This document shows positions 2,127 to 64,000 of a stretch of 64,000 nt of DNA, one piece after another; within the stretch, counting starts at the first letter, position 1; each line of letters opens with the position of its first letter. Position numbers and translations under genes: made by a program. The notes beneath the pieces are model-generated. The model saw only the letters and a list, made by a program, of their open reading frames with translations, ran no database searches and was not told where the DNA came from. The stretch lies in the NCBI GenBank assembly GCA_964023275.1, contig OZ029913.1, positions 46,069,976-46,133,975 of the forward strand, written 5' to 3'. The DNA is from Norana najaformis (lineage: Eukaryota > Annelida > Clitellata > Crassiclitellata > Hormogastridae).

Positions 2127-2175
2127 TCATAAGTTTTTAAACTGATTGGGTGATCATTAGATTTGAAGATCTTAC

Positions 2176-3501
2176 CATTTTCTGTCGGACTTGAGTGTTT
2201 TCAGTTTTAATCCAAGATGGCGACCCAACCGAATGACCAGAGGACCTTGTTGGAGTTTGTGATTGTGATGAAGAGAGGTGCCAAGAGGGGCTTGACATGG
2301 ACTGTGGTGGAGCTGAAGCATCCCATGACATCTGCAATGGATTCTGGTCAAAAAATGGCTTCATGTCGAGTCCACTGTTAAAATCATCCACAAACTGTGT
2401 ACCACCAAGTTCTGAAGTATCATATGCCAAATCAGATTCCGTCAGCTGAGAAGAGGACACAGGCTCCATCTTCTTTACAACTGATTCATTGTAGATTCCG
2501 GAAGAAGTCTGAAAGGAACCGATGTAATTACTGTCACCCTGGAAACTATCACCTTGGTAACTATCAGGAAGGCTGGAGCTCACCCCACGTGCTTCATTCA
2601 AAGCCTGATTCATGATTGCCTGTAGAGCCTTGGTTTTGTCATCTTCTACTGTGTCCTGCATTGCTGACTGTGCACCCCCCGAGTATGGCACTAGATCTGG
2701 CATCTTCTTTGCTTCTGAGTTCTCTTCATCAGATTCAACACAGATGACATCTCCATGCCCACGCTCCATCTTTACAGGGGGCATTTGGCCAAAGCCACCA
2801 CTAAACAGTTCCACCTTTTCCACTTTTGGCATGGGCTTAGCAGGCATTTGTCTCTGAAGAGCAGGAAGAGGCTGTTCCATGCCCTGTTTCTTTCCATCTT
2901 CCAGCATCAGCATCACTTTTCTTGGTTTCTGTTGACTAAGTGGCATTCGTGGGGATTGAGCAAAACGCACTGGAGGTGCATGAGTTGGGGTGACAGATGC
3001 ACTCATTCTTGGAGATGACTGTGGGGATCGCATTGCAAACATCTGCTTAGTATTTGCTGGACTTGCAGCAGAAGCAGCTGGATTCTGCATCTGCATCCCT
3101 CTCTGGGGGCTTGGGAAGTTCAACTGCTGCCGGACCTTTTGACGAGCCATTGCACTTCCTGGTGACACAGCGTTCATTCCACCGCGCATTCGACGTGGCA
3201 CAGTCTGAGCAACTCGGCGAACAGGTGTTCGAGCTGCAATGGTAGTCCTTGGTCTTTTGGCAGGAATGCTGCACATGGGGGTCCTTGCAACAGGAGGCAC
3301 GGCTCGCTCCATGCTCCCGGATGGCCCACCATCACCATACTCTTCATCAATCTGAATGATATAGAAATCAGCTTCATCAACTGTTATGCCGAGCAGACCT
3401 TGAACTTTCAACTGTTTATTGAAGGGCAGACTATTTCGACAGAGCAGGGTAACTGTGTCTGTCAGCAGTGCTCGAATTGTCTCTCTGTCAGCCTTTGCCA
3501 T
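2176..3501 (-). CDS. First coding exon of unrecognised Pro/Ser/Met/Gln-rich protein
   Basis: One long exon starts at ATG 3501, just inside a good 3' splice site (TTTTCAG, exon from 3521), so a 5' non-coding exon lies upstream. The start has A at -3 and G at +4. The first 60 residues look folded (MAKADRETIRALLTDTVTLL, then LKVQGLLGITVDEADFYIIQ). The rest is low-complexity, rich in Pro, Ser, Met, Gln and Arg, with short acidic patches and a VKMERG/WIKTE sumoylation-like pair. This suggests a nuclear regulatory protein, but I do not recognise the family. The frame stays open for a few codons beyond, yet the donor ATG|GTAAGA at 2176/2175 is near-perfect, so the coding sequence very likely continues in an exon to the left that I could not locate. 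A LINE sits in that intron. Confidence 0.75.
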
Positions 3502-3784
3502 TCTCACGTTATGTCTCGTCACTGAAAACAACCACACTAAATTTCAGCACATCATAACAATAATCAGCAGTATGAGTCTATCAAAAGGCAGAAAATAGGA
3601 GTATGCAAAGTAGTATGATTCACCTTTAAGTATGCAATAATCAATGACTCACAATCTTACCTCCTCAGAAATTAAGATGCAATTCAGCACAGCAAAATAC
3701 AAGCCCTTCCTTAGTAAGTAAATATCCCGTATCCCACAAGTGACACGTAGAGAAGGCCATCATTTCCTTTTCTTTGGACCCTTG

Positions 3785-12855: not shown

Positions 12856-13402
12856 ATGGCGAACGGCGGTCTGCCTTTTCCGTCGACGAGTGTTCTGCAA
12901 GCCCGTCAGGTTCGGCTCCCCCTAAGTCTAGCGGAAGGCTTCTTATACTTCTCAAGTGAAGAACAACGAAGTAACTTTCTCGAATTTAATGGTGCTCAAC
13001 TCGAGCAACCAACTTTAATTAACTTCGAAGATCACAATTCGGTAAGAAAGTCAAACAATTAGCCAAGAGTCATAACTCGGTCACAAGAGAACTCTACAGT
13101 TAGGCTCACGCCCCGACGACAACACAGCAACGGCAGCAACCGCAACAACCGAACCACAGCCAAAACCTACGGCTCACTTATATACTAAGTTACAGCTTAG
13201 TTTAAGCCTGCAGCGAGTTTAAGCCTGCAGCTTAGTTTAAGCCTACAGCGAGTTTAAGGCTGCAGCGAGTTCAAGCCTGCAGCTTAGTTTAAGCCTGCAG
13301 CGAGTTTAAGCCTGCAGCGAGTTCAAGCCTGCAGCGAGTTTAAGCCTGCAGCGAGTTTAAGCCTACGGCGAGTTTAAGCCTACAATGGCGAGGGTCGCCA
13401 CA
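12856..13402 (-). repeat. 3' LTR of Gypsy element
   Basis: On the minus strand it starts TGTGGCGACC and ends CGTTCGCCAT. Positions 13191-13386 hold a minisatellite of 17-bp units (AGCGAGTTTAAGCCTGC and variants), present in both LTRs. Confidence 0.95.
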
Positions 13403-13650
13403 CTCTTCGCCCACCACGAGTTATAAACCTCCCTAGGTTTATCAGAAAAATCAGATAATTACAGACAAATAAAACCAAGTCCAATAATCACATAAAAACA
13501 AAACAGTACCGGCAGCAGCAGTTAGTCCAACATAACCACGTCGTCGTCGTCAACTTCATCACCATCCACGTTTTGTTGATTGATCAACGCACACGCGGCC
13601 TTTTATACCCTTTTAAGGTTGTCAAGGCGACGTTTATGAGGAGGTCCTCA
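13403..13650 (-). other. Gypsy region between pol stop and 3' LTR
   Basis: On the minus strand it ends in purine-rich GGGCGAAGAG next to the LTR, a plausible polypurine tract for plus-strand priming. No envelope frame is present. Confidence 0.6.
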
Positions 13651-15996
13651 CTATTGAAATCTGACTGGCTTTCGGACGGCCCGTCGTGGCCGCCCGGACA
13701 CTGGCTCAGGCGTCACTACCACGAGATCCCCCACCCTCTCTTCTACTGGGAAAGGGTCTGCCCCTCCCTTGTCCAGATAAGCCCGCAATTTGTCTACGTG
13801 GGCCACGAAGGGTTTGGCCTTAGGTGATTTCTGCAAAAGATAGGTCACCGGGCTCAACTGGCGTAAAATCTCAAAGGGACCACTGTACATCCGCTGCCAT
13901 TTTGGGCTGCGGCCTATACACCTCCTCGGCGTGAAGTACCACACCCGGGAACCCACAGCAAATCTAGCAGGGCGAACACGCAAATCATACGCGTGTTTCC
14001 TACGCTCAGCAGTTCTATGTAGCTGCTCACGTACAAGACTGTACGCGGCCTCAAGCCTCTCTACCAACTCCTCAGCATAAGTCGAACAAGTGATCGCTCT
14101 CTCATCCATGTCAGGAGGTCTGCCGTGCACCTCTCTCAGCCGATCAGGCGCAGGGAACAGGGCTACATCGCATACTTTGCCCAGATCCACCGCGATTCCC
14201 ATGAGTGTGACCACGTGATACTTACTGGACTTCAACGTGAAGTTTACTCCCCGAAGCCTTTGGAACATTTGTATCAGCCTTTCTAGGTGCCGCTCGGGCG
14301 TTCTCCCAAAGATCACATCATCATAGTACACCAAGCACTGTTCAAAGTTCAGTCCCGATAACACGATATCCATCAGCCTCTGGAAGGTAGCCGGTACATG
14401 GCATAACCCGAAGGGCATTACCCGCCATCGAAAAATTCCCCGACGCGTAATGAAAGCGGTCTTGTCTACATCCCGCGGGTCCATTTCAACCTGGTGATAA
14501 CCACTCCTGAGATCCAGCGTACTAAACCAACCCGCGCCAGCAAGAGAATCCAGGCACTCATCTATTCTGGGGAGTGGATATGAATCCTTCCGAGTTTGGT
14601 CATTCAAGCGACGATAGTCAATGCAAAATCTCATGCTTCCATCCTTCTTCTTAGCTAGGACCACATTAGCCGCCCACTCACTAACAACAGGCTCAATTAC
14701 TCCGTGCGCCAACATCTGATCCAACTGCTGGTCGATCACTGTCCTATGGGAAAACGGCTGTCGTCTTAAAGGCTGCTTAATGGGTCGGGCCTCTCCGGTT
14801 TCAATCATGTGCTTACAAAACGAGGTACGTCCCAGCTCCCCTTCGGTTTTGGAGAACACATCTTGATACTCCTTCAGCAATTCCCTTAATTGACACACCA
14901 GAGCCCCTGGGACTTCCTCGGAAACATCCTTTATCAGCTCTTCCACAAAAGGCGGCTCCTTGCCAATCCCGCCATCCCGACTACTGCTTTCACTACCATT
15001 TAACTTGACCGGGTGCAAATCTCCCAGTAATTGATCCTTGCTGAGCTTAGTAGGGGTCTCATTTAGATTCAACACTCGTACAGGCGCTACATTGGAGTCC
15101 TCTGATACAACAACCCGTGCCAAATGCACACCTGGCTGAACCTCTTTCGCCTCGGTCATCCAAGCTGGGGCGGTGAAGGATATGTTCCTATACAAGGCCC
15201 TGGCCGGTACATCACTCTGTGCTAAGGGGGATATCACTACGTCTTCGGCAACCATGACCCTGCGGCACCACTCTGAACCATCTCCTTTTACTAGTTGGAT
15301 GCGCTTCCTGCCGACAAACAGCGCGCCTGTTCCGAACCCCAAACGGCACCGATGCTGCCTCAGCCAGTCCATTCCTAACATCGGTTCCAGGATCTGGTCA
15401 GATACCAAAAAGGAGGTGTCCAGCACAAACCCGCGCCTAATCTTAATGGGGATGCTGATCTCTCCCAACACTCGGATTTCCGTGCCATTAGCAGCCAAAA
15501 GGGTGCGCCTACTAGGGTGCAATTCTAACCCCATTACCGTGGAAAAGGGTACCAGACTCACCTCAGAGCCAGTGTCGATTAGGCACTTCTGAGAACGTCC
15601 GTGGATCACACCTTGAATGTAGATCGTGTTCCCATCCGTTCGGCTCGATGACCTTTGCCAAGCAGTGTGGTTCACGGCTGTCGTCTCTTTCTCCGGCTGG
15701 TCGTTGGGCGCGGCGGCCTCCGTTGTCGAACTCCAGAATCTCCTCGGTTGGCGACAGCGTCGGGCAAAGTGTCCTCTTTTCCCGCAATTGTAGCAGGCTC
15801 CATCCTGCCTCATTCTCTCCAGTTGCGTCCCTTCGCGCCCAGCGGGTTGTCCCGTCCCTTCCGACGTCTCGTGCAGACTTCGTATGGCCGCTAGTTTCGG
15901 TCCATCTTCTTCTCCCATTCGGTCTGCCAGCGCCGCTGTGTCTCCCGTTGCGCCGAAAAGAACTGCTCCATCTGGTTCTGCTGTGGACCCATCCAA
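13651..15996 (-). pseudogene. pol: Gypsy pol: protease-RT fused to integrase tail by deletion
   Basis: The frame of 781 codons remains open through a large deletion. In order: zinc knuckle CYNCGKRGHFARRC (68-81), aspartic protease (LIDTGSEVSLV, Asp141), and RT with DYRRLN, the first catalytic Asp in STLDLRSGYHQ, and the YYDD box near 556-560. After about residue 595 (NFTLKSSKYH) the sequence jumps to text typical of the integrase C-terminal region (GRPPDMDERA, then YSGPFEILRQLSPVTYLLQ near 690). The RT end, all of RNase H, and the integrase zinc and DDE domains are missing, roughly 600 residues by family norms. The stop codon and 3' region are intact. Confidence 0.88.
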
Positions 15997-16808
15997 TCGG
16001 CTTCTTGTGTCCCCCGGACACGGTTGGTTGGTCGTCGACGATCGTCTGCATCCGACATCCGTTGATATGTCTCCAGCCGCAGGGCCACCCGGTAAGCTTC
16101 GTCGAGGGTTCTGGGTTCCCTTTCGCGTACTTTCAATGCCAGTTCACGATCGCGGATAGCCTCCAGAAACGCGTCTCGTGCCACAACCTCGGTCGTCTCA
16201 TTCGAAGGCGTCGGGTAGGCGAGCACCACTAACCGCCGGACATCATGTAGCAGGTCACCAAGAGTCTCATTAGGCTGTTGACGTCGGTAATAAAGCTGTG
16301 CCCGGAAGGTTTCCGCTTGGCCCTCTGTACCGTATCTCTGCCGCAGTCTCTTGGTCAGCTCTTCGTAGGTAACGTCTTGTTGCGCCCCGAAATCCCACAG
16401 CAGCTGGGTTGCAGCTTTATCGAGTGCGCAGCGCAGGAAATCAATCTTGTCCAACGCAGTCCACTGGTTATATTTCGCACATACTTCAAACTGTGCGAGG
16501 AAAGATTCCACCGATCCGGTTCCGTCAAATTTCCCGGGCTTCATCGGCATCTTCCGAGGTCCTGTCGCGGCGCCGTCTTCATCTCTGCGTGGTCGGGTGG
16601 ACATTGTTCTGGCTGAACCCCTCGCCACTGCCGATGCAGGGCTGTCGAAGTCGATCCCCTCCAAGAATCGGTTTTGCTGACTCTGGCGTCGGTCCGACAT
16701 CTCCCTCCTTGTCTCCGGCGTCGAGCTTTCCGGCTGACGATCAGATGAATCTGCCAGGTCCAACAGGGTGTATACAACTGTGTTCCCTTCTGACTCCGCA
16801 GCGTCCAT
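15891..16808 (-). CDS. gag: Gypsy gag (capsid) protein
   Basis: An intact 305-codon ORF codes for the retrotransposon capsid precursor. A disordered, charged N-terminus precedes the conserved retrotransposon gag fold at about residues 95-230 (KFDGTGSVESFLAQFE, then LRQRYG...AETFRAQLYYRRQ and LGDLLHDVRRLV). The protein would package element RNA in cytoplasmic particles. The nucleocapsid zinc knuckle is not in this frame but in the pol frame. The pol frame overlaps gag by 106 bases and lies at -1 relative to it, so pol is probably made by -1 ribosomal frameshifting; I saw no canonical slippery heptamer. Confidence 0.88.
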   Translation of the reverse strand: MDAAESEGNTVVYTLLDLADSSDRQPESSTPETRREMSDRRQSQQNRFLEGIDFDSPASAVARGSARTMSTRPRRDEDGAATGPRKMPMKPGKFDGTGSVESFLAQFEVCAKYNQWTALDKIDFLRCALDKAATQLLWDFGAQQDVTYEELTKRLRQRYGTEGQAETFRAQLYYRRQQPNETLGDLLHDVRRLVVLAYPTPSNETTEVVARDAFLEAIRDRELALKVREREPRTLDEAYRVALRLETYQRMSDADDRRRPTNRVRGTQEADWMGPQQNQMEQFFSAQRETQRRWQTEWEKKMDRN

Positions 16809-16872
16809 ACTGGCTTCCTACCGACAATCTTTGACAGGCGAACAACCCTCTCAACAGAAGTAAACAAACGTA

Positions 16873-16889
16873 CCCCACTTCTGGTACCA
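16873..16889 (-). promoter_or_regulatory. Primer-binding site
   Basis: Four bases inside the 5' LTR the minus strand reads TGGTACCAGAAGTGGGG. The leading TGG is complementary to the CCA end of a tRNA, and the sequence resembles the leucine-tRNA-type sites of Mag-like Gypsy elements. The tRNA identity is from memory and unverified. Confidence 0.65.
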
Positions 16890-16893
16890 AGTT

Positions 16894-17440
16894 ATGGCGA
16901 ACGGCGGTCTGCCTTTTCCGTCGACGAGTGTTCTGCAAGCCCGTCAGGTTCGGCTCCCCCTAAGTCTAGCGGAAGGCTTCTTATACTTCTCAAGTGAAGA
17001 ACAACGAAGTAACTTTCTCGAATTTAATGGTGCTCAACTCGAGCAACCAACTTTAATTAACTTCGAAGATCACAATTCGGTAAGAAAGTCAAACAATTCG
17101 CCAAGAGTCATAACTCGGTCACAAGAGAACTCTACAGTTAGGCTCACGCCCCGACGACAACACAGCAACGGCAGCAACCGCAACAACCGAACCACAGCCA
17201 AAACCTACGGCTCACTTATATACTAAGTTACAGCTTAGTTTAAGCCTGCAGCGAGTTTAAGCCTGCAGCTTAGTTTAAGCCTACAGCGAGTTTAAGGCTG
17301 CAGCGAGTTCAAGCCTGCAGCTTAGTTTAAGCCTGCAGCGAGTTTAAGCCTGCAGCGAGTTCAAGCCTGCAGCGAGTTTAAGCCTGCAGCGAGTTTAAGC
17401 CTACGGCGAGTTTAAGCCTACAATGGCGAGGGTCGCCACA
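16894..17440 (-). repeat. 5' LTR of Gypsy element
   Basis: Same length as the left LTR and nearly identical; one difference seen is C versus A in CAATTCGCCAAG/CAATTAGCCAAG. The promoter and RNA start would lie here. Confidence 0.95.
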
Positions 17441-34897: not shown

Positions 34898-35112
34898 TTA
34901 TACAAAATAACGACAATTATTAAATAATATTATGATAAACTAGCAGTGAAACAATAAGAATATATAATAATAATTATTTAAGCACAAGATAACAGGATAC
35001 GCACAAGGGCGGATGCAGAGGTAGGCTAATGCCCCATTTGATTTAAGGGATCACACCATTGAGTTGCCTCCAAACCGGTGTCGGCGAGAGTTCCCCACAG
35101 AAGTTATAAATA

Positions 35113-37436
35113 CACTGGACAACAAATTTTTACAAAAGTCATGTTACTGAAATGAAATTAGTCAGTTCTTATCAATTTGTATGTGCTGAACACGAATATG
35201 ACAGTGAAAATGCCGAATTGGCTCTAGTTTTTTTTGTAATCTGAAATGAAGTAATTTTATATCGCACAGTGCATGCCAATAGTGATACACTTACAGTTAA
35301 TATTTGTAAAAACCAGGTCATAGACTAGTTCTTAGATTTTTTTGCCTGTCTCTTGTACAGCTGTTCGGGAGCATCTCTGCGGAGTGTCCAGCAGTAGTCA
35401 GCCAACATTGTAGTGGACCATTTTCCCTGGTACCTTTGCTCCATTGTTGCGATATCTTGATGAAAACGTTCGCCATGTTCGTCACTAACCATACCACAGC
35501 TGTCAGGGAAGAAATCCAGATGGGAATGAAGGAAATGCATCTTCAGAGACATATTGCAGCGAAATTTCTGTTACTGCTTGAGCATGTCTTCTACTAGTTC
35601 CTTGTAGTTTTCTGCCCTAACATTCCCCAGAAAGTCTGTAGACACTAGACGAAAACCATTCCATGCTTGTTTCGCATCACCCTCCAGCAAGTTGTTGAAG
35701 CGGTCATCTTTGAAGAGTTCTCTAATCTGAGGACCCACAAAAACTCCCTCTTTAATCTTTGCTTCGCTGAGTCGAGGGAATTTTTCATGCAGGTATCGGA
35801 AAGCTGGCGAAGTGCGGTCCATGGCTTTCACGAAGTTCTTCACCAAACATAGTTTGATGTGAAGGGGTGTTAGTAGGATTTTGTGAGCCTCGACCAGAGC
35901 TGGGTGCTGGATATTCTTCTGTCCAACTGCCATGTTTTGTCTGGGAGTCCATTCCTTCCGCACGTAGTGCAACTCTCTTGCTCGGCTATCCCACTCACAC
36001 AAGAAACACATATTTTGTATATCCTTGTTGCAGTCCCATTAAAATGGCAACTACCTTCAAATCACCACACAGGTGCCATTTGTACCTGTTATAGCCAATG
36101 GAATGCAGTAGCTGTTTTAGGTTATCGTATGTCTCTTTCATGTGGACAGCATGCGCTAATGGAATAGATGGAAGACGGTTTCCATTGTGCAAAAGCACAG
36201 CCTTAAGACTCAGTGTTGAAGAGTCTACAAAGAGTCTCCATTCTTGTGGGTCATGAGTGATCTGTAAGGCATTCATGAGGTCGTCAATATTGGAACAGAA
36301 TACCAGATTACCTTCCTTCATAAAGAAAGGTTCCAACTGCTGATGGCGCTTTCTATATGAAGTAATTGTGACATCTTCTTCTAGAAGATTCCATTGTTGG
36401 AGTCTTGATCCTAGCAATTCTGCCTTGTTTTTGGATAAGTCCAAATCACGAACAAGGTCATTTAGTTCTTCCTGTGTTATTCTGTGTGGGGTTGATGATG
36501 CACCACAGTGAAAATCGGGATCACTGCACGCTGACGGACCAGGAGAAGAACATGTCGGCTCACCCTTGTCCTCATCAGATGAATCAAGGAAAATATATTC
36601 TGCTGGAGGTTCTGGAATAGGAAGTCCATCACCATGTGGAACTGGTCTCAATGCTGACGGAATGTTTGGGTAGACTATTGTCGACTTCTTTTGCTTCGTT
36701 ATTCCACCGGAAAGAGGAGGAACCAAGCAGAAGTAACAGTCATCTACGTGGTTGCTTTGATCTCCACACCATGGGAACTGCAAACGGCATTGATGGTCTT
36801 TTGCCATTCAACCCCTGTGAAAGCTGTGTTGTACATGTAGCACAGCATATATGCGGGGCCCATGGCTTGTCTTGGTCACCAACCTTGCATTCGAAGTAAG
36901 CATGATATGCCTTCTTGACTTGATAAGTGATACTTTTCTTCTGGTTGGCAAATGTCACTTCCCCACAAATGTAACAAAAGTTGTCCACAGTATTTACGCA
37001 CTTCCGAGGCATTACTGTTCTGTATTGTATCTAAATGGATAAAGTAATAATAGTTTTATAAAACAGTAACTTAAACTGTCTCGCACAAAGTCTGTAATAT
37101 TGTAAATGCTCAACCGTTCCGACTCGCTTTATATAGTACACTGCTGACGTCATCTTACGTCAGCAGCCGACTGGCTGTAGTTTTACATTGCATCAGAAAA
37201 TGACGTAATCAACTGTGCATGATGTGTCCATGATGGGATTATGCAATGAGGTGGAATATTACATCATTCTAGACTTATTTAGGATATTGTCGCAGTCCTA
37301 CTGCATAAATATACATGGTGAAACATAAAAAATGAACTATATGAAATATTTTCAAAACGAGAGCCAATAAAAAATTTTTATGGTTATATTCGTGTTCAGC
37401 ACACCAAGATGCTACACATTAGGGCCTTTTCCAGTC
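35113..37436 (-). mobile_element. CMC-like DNA transposon, copy 2 (decayed)
   Basis: The 2.3-kb element starts CACTGGACAACAAATTT at the left and ends TTTTCCAGTC at the right, a complementary CACTGG/GACTGG pair. A 17-bp inverted block GTGCTGAACACGAATAT sits inside each end (35183-35199 and complement at 37386-37402). The 14-bp direct repeat AGAAGTTATAAATA flanks it (35099-35112, 37437-37450). The gene inside is frameshifted. It is clearly related to, but well diverged from, the intact copy at 45.7-48.4 kb. It sits in the G-H intron of the SLC28-like gene. Confidence 0.8.
35325..37012 (-). pseudogene. CMC-like transposase, frameshifted
   Basis: The same architecture as the 567-aa copy is spread over four frames: 37012-36740 (N-terminal CYIC...CATC zinc module), 36807-35995 (CYFC, linker, first Asp in EWRLFVDSSTLSLKAVLL, second Asp in CGDLKVVAILMG), 36011-35571 (CFLCEWDSRARE and PLHIKLCLVKNFVKAMDR) and 35552-35325 (FLHSHLDFFP, then DEHGERFHQDI). 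At least two frameshifts and one in-frame break separate them, so no full protein can be made. In intact relatives this would be the enzyme that cuts and pastes the element (inference). Confidence 0.85.
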
Positions 37437-38049
37437 AGAAGTTATAAATATCATTTAATGTTATGAGATTATATGTCGTGCGCACGACGTAAATATTTTT
37501 TCACGTTGGGTTTTCCGTAACTAACAGATGTAAATTTACTAGATGTAAATTGGCGTATTATTACACAAAAAACGGAACTGACCTTAATACTGACCTCAAC
37601 TGAGTTTTATGATGCCATTAATCTGCGTACCATATTGTGAGCTTATCTTATCTGTTAGGGGTAGCTATACTTTCCTCTATTCCTGTTGCTTGCCCTCTCT
37701 TCTAGAAGTAAATGTATGTACGTAAATGCAGATGACGTTAACTGATCAACATTGAGCAATGAACTGAACTGAAAATTCGAGGATTAAAGCACGCCTACTT
37801 TTGGGATTCAGACTTCGTTGCCTTACAGAAATTTACGCTAATATTCAAACCAACAAGCCAACAGCCTAAGGTAGTTACTGTGATGCTATATAGGGTCCAA
37901 AGATGTCAGATGGACCACTTTAAGCACTGTTTAATCAATACTGACAATAATTATCAACTTCTGGACTTCTGTTTTTAAAGACTTTTTGTATTCAAGCATT
38001 ACAGTATAGTTAACCAGCAGTAAACTCTTCCTGCTTAAAATATTCCTGT

Positions 38050-44099: not shown

Positions 44100-45230
44100 T
44101 TTGTAAAACATTTTCGACTACCCATCATTAGTTGTCTTTGTATCTGCTTCTGAATCTGCTTCTGTTGCTTTGTTTGCTTGGCGATACTGAAATAAATCTT
44201 GGACTTCAGAATCTGGATATTGGGCAAATAAGCATTTGTTCTCTTCGAAATAAAGCTGCGACCATACATAATTTTCTTTTTGAGTATTCGTTGCATATAT
44301 TTGCTCTTACTGAGACCTAGCTGGAACTTGGTGATACATCTTCATTCATTTCCGATTTGATTCCTCCAACCTTGTATATACGCTGAATGAGCCTCGCTGC
44401 AGTGGTAAAAGTGGGGATTTGATTTCTTATTAGGTCATATCTATCGCTGCACAGATTCACTTTTCCGATTTGCACTCGGGTTATTTGCGGTCCTGGCTGC
44501 TACTCCCACTTCTGGCATCAGATAGGTAGGCCTATTGCTTTTGACTATTTATCAACCACCACCTCTCTCTTTGACTGACTTTTGAGTGATTTTCAATCAC
44601 TGAATATCTGATTTTCTCCCCTTCTGAAATAGTCATTATGGGAGACTTCAATATTCGTGATGTTTCAGCATTTCTTGATATGTTGGAAGTGTTTGACATG
44701 AAACAGTTCATTACCTTTTCAACACATAACAAAGGTCATACCCTGGTTGTCCTGATAACTCGTTCTGATTCGCAGTTGCTTCAGTCTGTTACTTCTGTTG
44801 AGATCATCACTTTCAGATCATATTGCCATCTTCTCAAAATTTGACTTCCCGTTTAAACCGCCTCCAAATTATAAAACTTTTAAATCTCACCATTGGCATA
44901 AATTGGTTTAAATACACTAAACATGATAGGTTGGCATCTCCGTTATTATTATTTCCAGCCCAGACAGCTAATGAGTTGGCTTTGCAATTTCAGTCTCCTT
45001 TATCTGAGCTCCTTGACAGAAAAATTCCTTTTAGAACTACGACAGTAATAGAGCGCACACCGCAGTCTTGGTTTAACTCTGCCACTTCTGAAGCTAAGCG
45101 TCACAGAAGGCAGTTAGAGTGTTGGTGGCGCCACTCTCGCCTTCTCTTGGACCACCCATACTAGGTTTGAGCAACAGTGCAAACTTGTGGGAAAATTTGT
45201 CTTATCTGCCATGTCTAACTCACTATTATC
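44100..45230 (+). mobile_element. LINE endonuclease region, decayed
   Basis: Frames give LLLCLLGDTEINLGLQ, ICSLRNKAATIHNFLF, FALTET, then MGDFNIRDVSAFLDMLEVFD and HNKGHTLVVLITRSDS: the apurinic endonuclease domain of a CR1/L2-type LINE, ending with RRQLECWWRHSRL. Stops and frameshifts are frequent. At 45232 it abuts the RT C-terminus of the next entry; both may be one element with an internal deletion. Confidence 0.75.
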
Positions 45231-45231
45231 G

Positions 45232-45730
45232 GGTGCAGTCAGTGCTGAACTCTGCAGCACGTGTCATCTACGGCCGGACACCGTCCGATCATATTAGTGA
45301 CCTGCTGCTCGACAATCTGCACTGGCTGTGCGTTCCTCAACGGATCACATACAAACAATGTCTGATCACCTTCAAAGCACTGAATGGCCTCATGCCGGAC
45401 TACATCTCCGAATTTTGTATTCGAGTCGGAGATAATGAGAACAGATGTCGGCTGAGGTCCTCGTCGAGGAACCAACTGCAGGTCCCAAGGTCTACCACGC
45501 GGTTTGGCGAAAGCTCTTTCTCGATTGCCGGACCCACTGCGTGGAATAGCCTTCCAGACCACGTGAAGAATGCTCCATCCTTGGATAACTTTAAGAAAGG
45601 GCTTAAAACGTTTCTATTTAAATTATCGTATGACTGTAGTTAATTTTCTATTGTCGCCTGAACTTATGTACAGCGCCCTTTTCTTCGGCCTTGGCCGTCT
45701 TACGGCGCTATATAAATTGTCCTATTATTA
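45232..45730 (+). mobile_element. LINE copy, RT C-terminus and (TTA)n tail
   Basis: From GGTGCAGTCAGTGCTGAAC onward this copy matches the LINE at 657-2126 closely. The frame 45119-45643 keeps the C-terminal SIAGPTAWNSLPDHVKNAP that the first copy has lost by deletion. The 3' end TATAAATTGTCCTATTATTA is cut by a DNA transposon at 45731, and the TTA tail resumes at 48355. Confidence 0.85.
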
Positions 45731-48354
45731 CACTGGCCAACACATCATTTGTTGCCTCAAATGTTAGAACTGTTTCTGGGTATATTTGACCTGCTGATTC
45801 CAGAAAAGGCACCAGTTTTCTCCCAGCAGGTCTAGTTTTCGAGATATAGAACATTATGCCATATACCAGTCCTTGCCTCTGCTCGCCCATAAAACATAAG
45901 GCTATAGCTATAATTATGTAGTGCTCAATTTATTATGTGATACACTAAATAAACATAATAATACAAATACTTAAAAGAAAATGGTAGTACCTGAAACTGT
46001 ACTTATATGATACCAAACAGAACAAGTTTGTTATAAAAATTTCAAGTCATTCGACACCGAAGAAGCTCCTTTTGTACGATTTCCGAGTGTGGCATCTGCC
46101 GGAACAATCGCGCATAATATTCCAGCAATAGTCTGCCATCATGTGTGCATCCCATCTTCCTTGATATCGATTTTCCATTGTTTTGATGTCTTGGTGAAAT
46201 CTTTCACCTTGCTCTTCGCTGAAGTCACCAAGATTCTCTGGAAAGCGATCTAAGTGACTGTGGAGATAATGGACTTTAATGCTCATGTTGCAGCCAAGCT
46301 TGTTGAAATGAAGAAGCATATCCTCTACTAGTTGTGCATAATTGTCTGCCTTCTTGTTGCCAAGAAAATTTTTAGTTACAAGAACAAAGGAAGACCAGGC
46401 ACAAGATTCGATTTCATTCATTGATGGTATGAAAAGTGGGTCATTCATAAGTTGCCTGATCTGTGGACCATCGAAGATTCCAGCCTTCAATTTTTCCATT
46501 GTAATTCCTGGTAACTTGTGTACTATGTATTCGAAGCATGAACCTTCTTTATTCAAAGCCCTGACAAATTGTTTCATCAGGCCTAGCTTTATATGTAGTG
46601 GTGGCAGTATGATCCTATCTCGTGCCACCAAAGATTCCTTGATTACATTTTGAGCTCCAACCACCATGTCTTTCCTCGAAGGCCAATCTTTTCTTGTCCA
46701 ATGTTCATGCTTGGCTCTACTGTCCCAAAGACACAAAAAGCAGGGATACTTTGTGTAGCCACTTTGTTGACCAAGGAGGAAATTTACCATCTTCAAGTCT
46801 ACACAAATTACCCATTGATGTTCTTTGTATTTTATCTTTTCCAGTACTAAAGAGATGGCATTGTACTCTTCTTTCATCCTGGTGGAGTGACCGATTGGAA
46901 TAGAACCAAATTTGTTGCCGTTATTTAAAAGCACACATTTCAGACTACGTTTTGAACTGTCGATAAAAAGACGCCACTCATCTGGGCTGTAATCCGACAG
47001 ACCAATTTTCTTCAATAAGTTGCTGATGTCATTACAGAATACTAGGTTGTTGTCTTCGGTAAAGAATGGCAGCAAATCCTTTTCTCTGTTTCTATAAATT
47101 GTAATTTTCGTTCCAGGCTGAAGTGCATTCTTTTCCTTTAGTCTGGACGCAAGCAATTCAGAGGACTCTTTGGAAAGATTTAAGTCCCTGATCAGATCAC
47201 TCAACTCTTTTTGGTCAAAACGTTCACTGTGTGAAGTTGATTGGAAATCACTGTCACTGCCCCCACTTTCTTCACTTTCGTCATCTTGTCCGATATTGGA
47301 CATGCAAGTCTCATCGTCTGAGAGCTGAGGTAGTTCGCGAAAAGGTGGAACTAGTACAATATCCGAATGCGGAACAGGTCTCCTGGCTGAAGGTATATCA
47401 GGGTAAGACAACTTGTGACGATTATTTCGATTGATGCCTATGATATTAACCATACAAAAGTAACAGTCGTCGAAGTGGTTTATCTGTTCCCTCCAAACCA
47501 TCGGTACACCAAATTTCAGGCAGCTTCTCTTTCCAATTGTCCAGTGGCGCAATTGTTCAATACAAGTTTTGCATACTGTATGAGGAGCCCATTGCTTATC
47601 TTGATCTCCAAGTTTGACACCAAAATAACCTACGTATGCTCTTTTTACAAACTCAGAAATCGGTTTCCTGTTTGCTTTTAGTGTGTATTCCCCACAAATG
47701 TAGCAGAATATGTCTGGATGGTTAATGCAGCTCCGTCTGGAAGTAGCCATAACCTTAAGGATGTTCGCATCTGAGGAATTAAATGACTAACCTAAAAAAT
47801 AGTAAGAACATGTAGTTATTTAATGCTCACATTCACAGATTGTTCTTGCGACCAACTCTTAATATGCCCTAAGACGACTGCGGCTGCTCTAGCTTTCAGG
47901 AGGCGGTTTTTTAGGCTATAAATGCTGACTTCAGCATAATCTATTTACATAGTTCGAAACCATGAAACGCTGTATAAGCACAAATAAATTCTAAATGAGG
48001 CCATGAATTTAGTGCTGAGTAAGCTGTAGGCTACGGAATAGTTATTTCGTTGAATCAGCAATATCTCAGCACGCGGCAAGATATGCTGATTTTACATTAT
48101 AAGGATGTAGGCATTATATGAATCAGCAAGAATTATAATTAGCCATAAATAAAGCTTATTATGACATTTTAGTTTTGCCAAAGACATCGTTTAAAGAGTG
48201 GACTGGGTTTTCTTTACAAAATCGACGATATCTCAGAAACTAGACCTGATGCACTCAATCCAATGACATTTTCTGAATCAGCGCCCAAAATTACCCCAAG
48301 AACAGGTCTAAAACCGAAGGCAACAAGAAAAAAAAATTTTTCTGTTGGCCAGTG
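45731..48354 (-). mobile_element. CMC-like DNA transposon, copy 1 (intact-looking)
   Basis: The 2,624-bp element is bounded by perfect 12-bp inverted repeats, CACTGGCCAACA at the left and TGTTGGCCAGTG at the right. A second inverted block lies inside (CAGGTCTAGTTTTCGAGATA near 45827, near-complement at 48228-48248). It sits in the (TTA)n tail of a LINE, giving a TTA (or TTATTA) target duplication. One long gene fills it. CACT(A/G) termini and a 3-bp duplication fit the CACTA/Mirage/Chapaev superfamily; that assignment is inference. It lies in the F-G intron of the SLC28-like gene. Confidence 0.9.
46047..47750 (-). CDS. Intact CMC-like transposase, 567 aa (inferred function)
   Basis: This is a single open frame. 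In order: zinc-like module C16-x2-C19...C60-x2-C63; VPMVWRE and D95-CYFC (C96/C99); a variable acidic linker (about 140-175); the KELSDLIRDLNLSKESSELL block; WRLFIDSS with Asp264 followed by two beta-like segments (SLKCVLLNNGN); VICVDLKM with Asp318; GYTKYPCFLCLWDSR (C337-x2-C340); PPLHIKLGLMKQFVRALN; and FLHSHLD-type HYLHSHLDRFP with EEQGERFHQDI (Glu516 or a neighbour). Asp-Asp-CxxC-Glu around an RNase H-like fold is how many eukaryotic DDE transposases look, so I infer a nuclear cut-and-paste transposase. As I recall, the family is common in invertebrate genomes under the label 'uncharacterised protein'. The short basic tail (RKSYKRSF) ends it. No intron is needed. Confidence 0.8.
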   Translation of the reverse strand: MATSRRSCINHPDIFCYICGEYTLKANRKPISEFVKRAYVGYFGVKLGDQDKQWAPHTVCKTCIEQLRHWTIGKRSCLKFGVPMVWREQINHFDDCYFCMVNIIGINRNNRHKLSYPDIPSARRPVPHSDIVLVPPFRELPQLSDDETCMSNIGQDDESEESGGSDSDFQSTSHSERFDQKELSDLIRDLNLSKESSELLASRLKEKNALQPGTKITIYRNREKDLLPFFTEDNNLVFCNDISNLLKKIGLSDYSPDEWRLFIDSSKRSLKCVLLNNGNKFGSIPIGHSTRMKEEYNAISLVLEKIKYKEHQWVICVDLKMVNFLLGQQSGYTKYPCFLCLWDSRAKHEHWTRKDWPSRKDMVVGAQNVIKESLVARDRIILPPLHIKLGLMKQFVRALNKEGSCFEYIVHKLPGITMEKLKAGIFDGPQIRQLMNDPLFIPSMNEIESCAWSSFVLVTKNFLGNKKADNYAQLVEDMLLHFNKLGCNMSIKVHYLHSHLDRFPENLGDFSEEQGERFHQDIKTMENRYQGRWDAHMMADYCWNIMRDCSGRCHTRKSYKRSFFGVE

Positions 48355-48893
48355 TTATTATTATTGTTATTATACTCGCTGAAAGTTCTGCATTACCAAT
48401 AATCTTGTGGTTGGCCCTAAATAAGTCCTTGCATCGGGAGAAGTTCCCAAAGATGATACTTCTGACAGACTTCGACAGGTTAGAGAGACTGTAATAAATG
48501 ACTGAGAAAAACTCTGACAATGAAGAAGAATGCAAATGAGTCTGTATAACGGATGTGAATGCTGCAGCCTAGTTATTGTTTTGGAGAAACTTGAAAGATC
48601 CTGGATAACGGAAGCCGTCAGAGCTACTTCAAAGACTTTGAGGATACGATGAATTAGAGCGAGAAAGAGAAGGAAAGTGTCGTTTATCGGCAGACACGTA
48701 AAGGATGGTTGTGACATTTGTTAGTGACGGAGTTGAGTTTCCTGAGGTAAGTAAGGTTAACTGAGCCTCTGTAGGCTCTGTTCCAGACGACGCCGGAAGG
48801 AGCTCGTATGGGCCTACGTCAAAGAAACGTACTTTATACGCTAAGAATGAACTTATCGCAAAGCGTTAACAATTTGTAATATACACTGTGTCC

Positions 48894-50254: not shown

Positions 50255-50700
50255 GAAGAGTGTAGGAAAATGGAGAGACGGAGGAATAAGAAAAGGATAA
50301 AAAGACGGAGAATGGAGAGACGGAAGAATAAGAAAAGGATAAAAAGACGGAGAATGGAGAGACGGAGGAATAAGAAAAGGATAAAAAGACGGAGAATGGA
50401 GAGACGGAAGAATAAGAACAGGATAAAAAGACGGAGAATGGAGAGACGGAAGAATAAGAAAAGGATAAAAAGACGGAGAATGGAGAGACGGAAGAATAAG
50501 AAAAGGATAAAAAGACGGAGAATGGAGAGACGGAAGAATAAGAAAAGGATAAAAAGACGGAGAATGGAGAGACGGAAGAATAAGAAAAGGATGAAAAGAA
50601 TGAGAATGGAGAGATGGAGGAATGGAATTAACGTGAAGAATAAGAGAATGGAACGACGGAGGAATTGAATGAGGATCAAGAGTAAGAGGATGAAAAGACG
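50255..50700. repeat. 42-bp minisatellite, about 9-10 units
   Basis: Units of 42 bp (AATGGAGAGACGGAAGAATA, then AGAAAAGGATAAAAAGACGG) decay toward the right. They give a Lys/Arg repeat frame (MERRKNKKRIKRRR) on the plus strand and a Leu/Phe/Ile frame on the minus strand, both probably fortuitous. It lies in the E-F intron. Confidence 0.95.
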
Positions 50701-50857
50701 GAGGAATAGGAAGAAGATCAAGAGTACGAGGATGGAGAGCTGGAGGAATAGAATGAACAGGCAGCTGAGTGGATCGATAGATAGAGATATCTTGGTGGTG
50801 AAAAGAGTGTTCTATAGTTACTTCTTTTCGAAGACGAGTCTTTTGTTAACTTTGGAC

Positions 50858-62856: not shown

Positions 62857-64000
62857 CACCGTGTAAAAAAACTTTTAATTATTTTTTGTTCCTGTGCAGC
62901 AAGCGTAATTTCCTAATTGTTTATACCTCAAAAGTATAGAAAATGGCTACTATTCCCCGTAAACTTTGCTTTTGTGACCTGCAGGACAGTGAAATTATAA
63001 AATTTAACTACTTTACAGAACATTCCAGATGAATTCAGTGTTGAGTAAACTTGGAGTAACTGCTAGAACTTTCTAGAAGTTTCGAGAATATTCTAGAACG
63101 ACAGAGAACCTTCTGGAACTGTCCAGAAATATAAATTACAGTGTAAATACAGTGGCCTTAAGCCCACCAGTTCAGTTTAATTGTAGCTGCCTAAGTTGAT
63201 ATATATCTGAAATGGCATCTGAAGGCTGCAAGCATCTGCAGACGCATTTTGCTATGTATGCAGCCAATTTATCAAGACAAGAGCGAAAAAGTACTCCGTG
63301 GAAGCATCTGCTAAGATGTGTGAAACTTACAAGGCATATTTCGGCATTCCTGTTGGGGATCAAGACAAACCCTGGGCACCTCATTTCACCTGCGAGCACT
63401 GAAATAAACACTCAAGGGTAAGATGGACAATTGATACTTGCTCAGATGGCGAAATTTTATGTTATAAAAGTTTTAAAAGTTTTAAATGTTGTAATTTCAC
63501 AATTTTTTGAAAATTTTCAAAGTTATTGAACAAATATATGATATATGAAATATGTTGCGAAAATGTCTTACACATTAGTCATGGGAGAAATACATTTATT
63601 TTGTTATGATCACAATTTAATTTTGTTCTTTTGCAGGATGGTACAGAGAAGAAAAGAGAGCTATGAAGTTTGCTATCTCAAGAATTTGGCGAGAACCCAC
63701 TGACCACTCAAGCAATTGCTACTTCGGCATGGTGGATCCTTCAAAACGTCGGAATGGCAAGAATGCACCTTCTTTCAGACATTGTCTTGGTGCCACACTG
63801 CCCTGAGTTTCCTATACCCACTCCTCTGAAAGCAATCGTCCAGAAGAGAGCAGTAAGTCATAGAGCAAGGAAGACATTGGAGCTCCAGATTACAATTTCC
63901 GAGATGAGGAGAGAAACCCATACTATCCCAATCAAAAAGACCTCAACAACTTGATCAGAAATCTTGGTCTCACCAAGTCCAATGCCGAGCTTTTGACGTC
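62857..64000 (+). mobile_element. CMC-like DNA transposon, copy 3 (cut by window end)
   Basis: The element seems to begin at CACCGTGTAAAAAAAC inside the LINE's RIKDH(L) codons and runs beyond the window. It encodes a third, clearly different member of the 567-aa family. The left terminus is proposed from the break in LINE homology and its CAC start; the other end is not visible. Confidence 0.65.
63212..64000 (+). pseudogene. CMC-like transposase, partial, with intron
   Basis: N-terminal family blocks are readable: SADAFCYVCSQFIKTRAKKY, YKAYFGIPVGDQDKPWAPHF, TCEH, then, after a GT-AG intron at 63418-63636 (AAGG|GTAAGA to TTTTGCAG|GATGG), LKGWYREEKRAMKFAISRIW, REPTDHSSNCYFGMVDP, and further on YPNQKDLNNLIRNLGLTKSN. 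Single-base frameshifts occur near 63233, 63399 and 63830-63850. The second Cys of CYFC is Gly. The catalytic part would lie beyond the window. The intron is absent from the 46-47.7 kb copy. Confidence 0.8.

Follow-up and report, generated by a model that had tools for sequence, protein, structure and literature searches.

Structure of the element

The window analysed here, a 64-kb stretch of the annelid Norana najaformis genome (contig OZ029913.1), contained a 2,624-bp element at 45731-48354, bounded by perfect inverted termini of 12 bp. The terminal sequence CACTGGCCAACA had just two exact matches within the window, one at 45731-45742 and the other, as the reverse complement, at 48343-48354. 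One open reading frame (ORF) on the reverse strand, at 46047-47750, was the only frame in the element longer than 103 aa and encoded a protein of 567 aa, confirming the gene between perfect 12-bp inverted repeats that had been described in an earlier reading of the letters (hereafter, the original prediction). A second inverted block near each end, also described there, was recovered by alignment (45827-45847 versus 48228-48248) as part of an imperfect inverted similarity reaching ~120 bp inward, so the ends are longer than had been noted. The features of the locus are as follows:

45000..45730, + strand: 3' part of the host long interspersed nuclear element (LINE), into whose (TTA)n tail the element inserted
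45728..45730: left copy of the TTA target duplication, within a TTA run; its length is ambiguous from a single site
45731..45742, + strand: terminal inverted repeat CACTGGCCAACA, lying at the 3' end when the element is read in the direction of the transposase
45731..45850, + strand: longer, imperfect terminal inverted region (alignment), holding the inner block CAGGTCTAGTTTTCGAGATAT at 45827-45847
46047..47750, - strand: transposase ORF, single exon, 567 aa
46074..47228, - strand: catalytic part, residues 175-559, with a predicted RNase H DDE core
47526..47750, - strand: N-terminal putative zinc module, residues 1-75, with a ZAD-like predicted fold
48225..48354, - strand: longer, imperfect terminal inverted region (alignment), holding the inner block at 48228-48248
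48343..48354, - strand: terminal inverted repeat, lying at the 5' end when read in the direction of the transposase
48355..48357: right copy of the TTA target duplication

TTA adjoined both edges of the element, which lay within the (TTA)n tail of the LINE. Elsewhere in the window, at 1633-2113, another copy of this LINE could be aligned that had the same 3' end with an unsplit (TTA)n tail, which bears out the claim that the element had split the tail of its host repeat.

Genomic copies and target-site duplications

We searched the 608-Mb assembly to which the window belongs (17 contigs) with the encoded protein. Scoring covered 77 of 6,417 first-look candidates, giving a copy number of at least 77; all 77 were 99-100% identical over the full 567 aa, lacked stops, and were spread over many contigs. 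Of these, 49 were then examined, including the best-scoring copies and the window's own (L001), a sample that favours young, intact copies. These had common ends and differing flanks: both 12-bp ends were kept, with at most two mismatches each, at 35 loci, the 5' end alone at six and the 3' end alone at eight.

An exact 3-bp duplication flanked 27 of the 35 two-ended copies, the window's copy among them (TAA 11, TTA 8, ATA 2, CTA 2, and TTT, TCA, CAA and TAT once each). The duplication was of TWA type in 19 of 27 and had A before and T after it in 22 of 27. Exact flank matches at lengths of 2, 4, 5 and 6 bp were found in 3, 1, 1 and 4 of the 35 copies, respectively. In 20,000 shuffles that randomly re-paired the left and right flanks of the two-ended copies, the mean number of 3-bp matches was 8.8 and the maximum 19; 27 was reached 0 times. 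Since no shuffle reached the observed count and many full-length copies share the same ends, the observation exceeds chance and confirms that the element moves as a unit. The combination of inverted ends and 3-bp duplications at independent insertions, proposed as a check in the original prediction, was thus found as far as this one genome is concerned. Eight two-ended copies lacked an exact 3-bp duplication (L002, L004, L021, L022, L025, L034, L044 and L047); in place of 3 bp, L021 was flanked by a 4-bp duplication (TTAT) and L025 by a 5-bp duplication (GCTTA).

To look for unfilled sites, the flanks of the 27 insertions were joined and searched for in the window and in all 49 fetched loci. 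Four (L001, L011, L020 and L041) aligned across the junction with a related stretch, L011 with two such relatives. Alignment was good up to and across the junction for L001, L011 and L041, and poor at the junction for L020, which was given no weight. The unfilled relatives were diverged copies (69-97% identity) of the repeats that had been hit, not allelic empty sites.

The 35 two-ended copies differed pairwise by 0.44% on average (595 pairs; range 0.08-0.76%), and the 567-aa frame was uninterrupted in 34 of them, showing that the element has multiplied recently; it is probably still mobile at present. Single-base codon variants comprised 35 synonymous and 28 non-synonymous changes (14, 11 and 38 at the three codon positions), a ratio biased towards constraint by the choice of copies on protein score. 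With the 200-bp 5' end as query, 799 candidates were returned; scoring covered 40 of them, and each was 100% identical. Short deletion derivatives (miniature inverted-repeat transposable elements) are not favoured as the source of these matches, because all ten of the 40 loci that were fetched ran on into the element.

Transposase core and protein family

Across 73 aligned sequences, D264, D318, C337, C340, L385-H386, H499 and E513 were invariant and H494 was conserved at 90% or more. This upholds the originally proposed layout of D264, D318 and a Glu, with a CxxC (337-340) after D318, and places three motifs in the catalytic part: C(2)C (C337/C340), LH (L385-H386) and H(4)H (H494/H499). The catalytic Glu would be E513 or E516, of which we infer E513. 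No CMC (Chapaev-Mirage-CACTA) transposase appeared among the solved structures listed; the predicted fold was compared with those of RAG1, Transib, P element and Hermes, and contained the RNase H-like DDE core expected of such an enzyme: residues 175-559 matched HzTransib and residues ~459-1008 of RAG1, the antibody-gene cutting enzyme. Identity across the matched fold was only 9-14%, and the RAG1-type RNase H core in the model denotes a shared fold, not membership. The single gene is therefore predicted, from this model, to make a DDE transposase with a core of RAG1/Transib type. The protein had no match in a viral fold library at E up to 0.001, and a PDB sequence search with the family profile returned only a FYVE domain (E 0.49).

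At E up to 1e-3 the window protein had 2,100 homologues, and the 120 listed were 57-97% identical; starting from a relative of 57% identity, 1,714 homologues were obtained, again with 120 listed. Named hosts among the matches listed were beetles (Pyrocoelia, Callosobruchus, Onthophagus), Hydra, a lizard (Rhineura), a frog (Ranitomeya), a snake (Erythrolamprus) and a bat (Saccopteryx), so the family is not the invertebrate-only orphan it had been taken for. Its description as a family of 'uncharacterised proteins' was apt: no named homologue listed bore a transposase name, no homologue listed carried a precomputed Pfam domain, and the window protein had no Pfam match above cut-off. The Hydra vulgaris protein was 61% identical to that of the window, and the Rhineura protein was 77% identical to Hydra's and 56-60% identical to those of the snake, bat and frog; across nine named proteins and the window's, identities did not mirror host kinship. 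This mismatch fits horizontal transfer, which PMC4079192 reports for Chapaev3, and old paralogues could produce the same pattern.

One close family member (P0099) was filed under a Pseudomonadota metagenome-assembled genome, on a contig of 2.65 kb, and is most likely animal contamination. In viral_contigs, one search for relatives gave no pattern match and another gave 28, none confirmed; in genome_contigs, none of 81 pattern matches was confirmed. The window itself held two further relatives. The first, at 35113-37436, was degraded, with a left end CACTGGACAACA at 35113, a decayed right end, inner inverted arms (35182-35231 and 37354-37403) and protein pieces 42-54% identical in three frames; it was flanked by an unexpected 14-bp direct repeat, AGAAGTTATAAATA (35099-35112 and 37437-37450), and not by 3 bp. 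The second, more distant relative ran off the window (63241-63998, + strand) and consisted of two transposase pieces of 27-44% identity, separated by ~200 bp that may be an intron.

Probable placement in Chapaev3 and rival readings

We interpret the unit, with a probability of roughly 0.9, as a member of the Chapaev3 group (Chapaev-Mirage-CACTA, CMC): a DNA transposon of the cut-and-paste type that is complete, very young and probably mobile to this day. Chapaev3 was described in Repbase Reports in 2008 (cited in PMC4411706), and its marks were set out in 2014 in PMC4079192: CAC/GTG ends, a 3-bp TWA duplication between A and T, and the motifs C(2)C, LH and H(4)H. The kind of transposon is therefore already known and not newly revealed; the element itself is real, complete and young. 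Each mark recurred here: CAC...GTG ends at the 35 of 49 loci that keep both termini, A[TWA]T as the prevailing target pattern with the exceptions counted above, and the DDE, C(2)C, LH and H(4)H motifs in the 73 sequences. On these published marks, we therefore file the element as a probable new family within Chapaev3.

As described in PMC4079192, Garfield, Merrow and Conan share with it the ends, a mostly TWA duplication and the DDE motifs, on hosts ranging from insects to lizards and mammals, and its element and protein sizes are close to those of Garfield_BM (2,289 bp, 556 aa). It differs from Garfield and Merrow, which have two exons, in having one, as do most Chapaev3 according to the same source, and a minority of its duplications are not TWA.

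The rival that survives best, to which we give a small chance, is that the family carries Chapaev3 marks but branches apart as a separate lineage of the wider CMC/Transib clade, comparable to Plavaka, ESTA or Lanisha. Motifs alone do not separate lineages, because the whole clade has C(2)C and H(3-4)H in common and most of it has CA..TG ends (PMC12730594). A further point weighs against Chapaev3: 8 of 27 duplications were not TWA, where PMC4079192 reports no exceptions. A separate lineage is made less likely by the LH motif, the size and the preference for A..TWA..T targets, all as reported for Chapaev3 in PMC4079192; the target preference is a more specific mark than the motifs shared by the clade. 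Hydra magnipapillata is also named for the Chapaev3 tree of that paper (fig. 1 legend), and its protein there may be the same as the Hydra vulgaris homologue.

Placement as a CACTA/EnSpm element proper, with a tnp2-type enzyme, is very improbable. The CACT-starting ends and the CMC-type motif layout speak for it, and the original prediction was right in outline to point to the CMC group, but the A[TWA]T bias of the duplication is that reported for Chapaev3, and the marks fit Chapaev3 rather than tnp2-type CACTA. The Pfam domain of tnp2-type transposases, which we take to be Transposase_21, gave no match to the window protein at E up to 10, nor did it appear for the 73 members at E up to 1 in the families shown (25 of 30), though the absence of a profile match is weak evidence.

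Likeness to Transib and RAG1 lies in the predicted core fold, in the CxxC after the second Asp and in the H-x4-H before the Glu, at what we take to be the RAG1 positions. The aligned range of RAG1 starts at ~459, presumably leaving its nonamer-binding domain outside. The N-terminus here is predicted to be ZAD-like. Membership of Transib was rejected because the duplication is 3 bp and not the 5 bp typical of that group (PMC4411706); flanks matched exactly at 3 bp in 27 of 35 copies and at 5 bp in one.

A host gene, perhaps a domesticated transposase, lying by chance between inverted repeats has next to no probability. The filing of several homologues as ordinary genes for an 'uncharacterized protein' speaks for it, but at this locus the near-identical copies on many contigs, with common ends in different flanks among the 49 examined, the 3-bp duplications and the unfilled related repeats rule it out, while single-copy host orthologues could exist in some species.

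Putative N-terminal zinc module

The N-terminal module, a well-modelled region, contained two CxxC pairs (C16, C19, C60 and C63) and was followed by a second Cys/His cluster (H92, C96 and C99). Among the 73 family members, zf-AD was the most frequent Pfam match (best member E 3.5e-5). The window protein scored 17.3 bits, or 20.9 bits for its trimmed N-terminus, against a curated cut-off of 28; in a set of ten proteins, the four that matched scored 12.8-15.3 bits. A RAG1_imp_bd profile matched two of the 73 members (best E 0.011), its position within the protein not located, and a PDB sequence search with the N-terminal profile found only a FYVE domain (E 0.36).

In insects, a very large family of transcription factors dimerises through the ZAD (zf-AD) domain. 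The module resembles the ZAD of insect C2H2 transcription factors in its two CxxC pairs and, as far as the prediction goes, may have a similar fold. Chapaev3 carries an N-terminal 'Chapa' zinc domain that is also present in RAG1, according to PMC4411706. We tentatively suggest, as a reading we hold to be possible yet doubtful, that the Chapaev3 zinc module is homologous to ZAD, that ZAD and the zinc region reportedly shared with RAG1 have one transposon-linked origin, and that the element is an active animal Chapaev3 suited to the biochemistry of a RAG-core CMC enzyme. A literature search found, among the papers listed, none linking ZAD with Chapaev or RAG1, a weak negative, as most subscription journals lay outside its coverage.

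Other features of the window

A Ty3-like long terminal repeat (LTR) retrotransposon (capsid, zinc knuckle, protease, reverse transcriptase) occupied 13191-17419, flanked by matching 17/52-bp tandem arrays (13191-13381 and 17229-17419) that probably lie within the LTRs. Its pol looks internally deleted, since a C-terminal piece of integrase follows closely behind the reverse transcriptase. At 50265-50757, a 42-bp tandem array of 8-12 copies was open on both strands; its low-complexity ORFs are probably not genes. A Ser/Pro/Gln-rich ORF of 466 aa (2137-3537, - strand) matched no Pfam family at E up to 0.001 and is possibly an exon of a host gene.

Proposed mechanism and significance

We postulate that the encoded protein would catalyse movement as a dimer, gripping the CACTGGCCAACA ends and the inner repeats through its N-terminal zinc modules and DNA-binding part. 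Excision would cut next to CAC/GTG, as in the family, and joining would use a 3-bp stagger at a near-palindromic A[TWA]T target, repair of which would yield the 3-bp duplication. Flank hairpins during excision, by analogy with Transib and RAG, are plausible because the predicted core is of RAG1/Transib type.

For gene annotation, the value of the finding is that members of this family filed namelessly as 'uncharacterized protein' in animal genomes can now be recognised as transposases. Being compact and present in many near-identical copies whose frames are intact, the element is a good candidate for testing whether Chapaev3 cuts DNA in a RAG/Transib-like manner. The part with the potential to surprise is the ZAD-like N-terminus: should it be confirmed, it would have implications for how a major domain of insect transcription factors arose.
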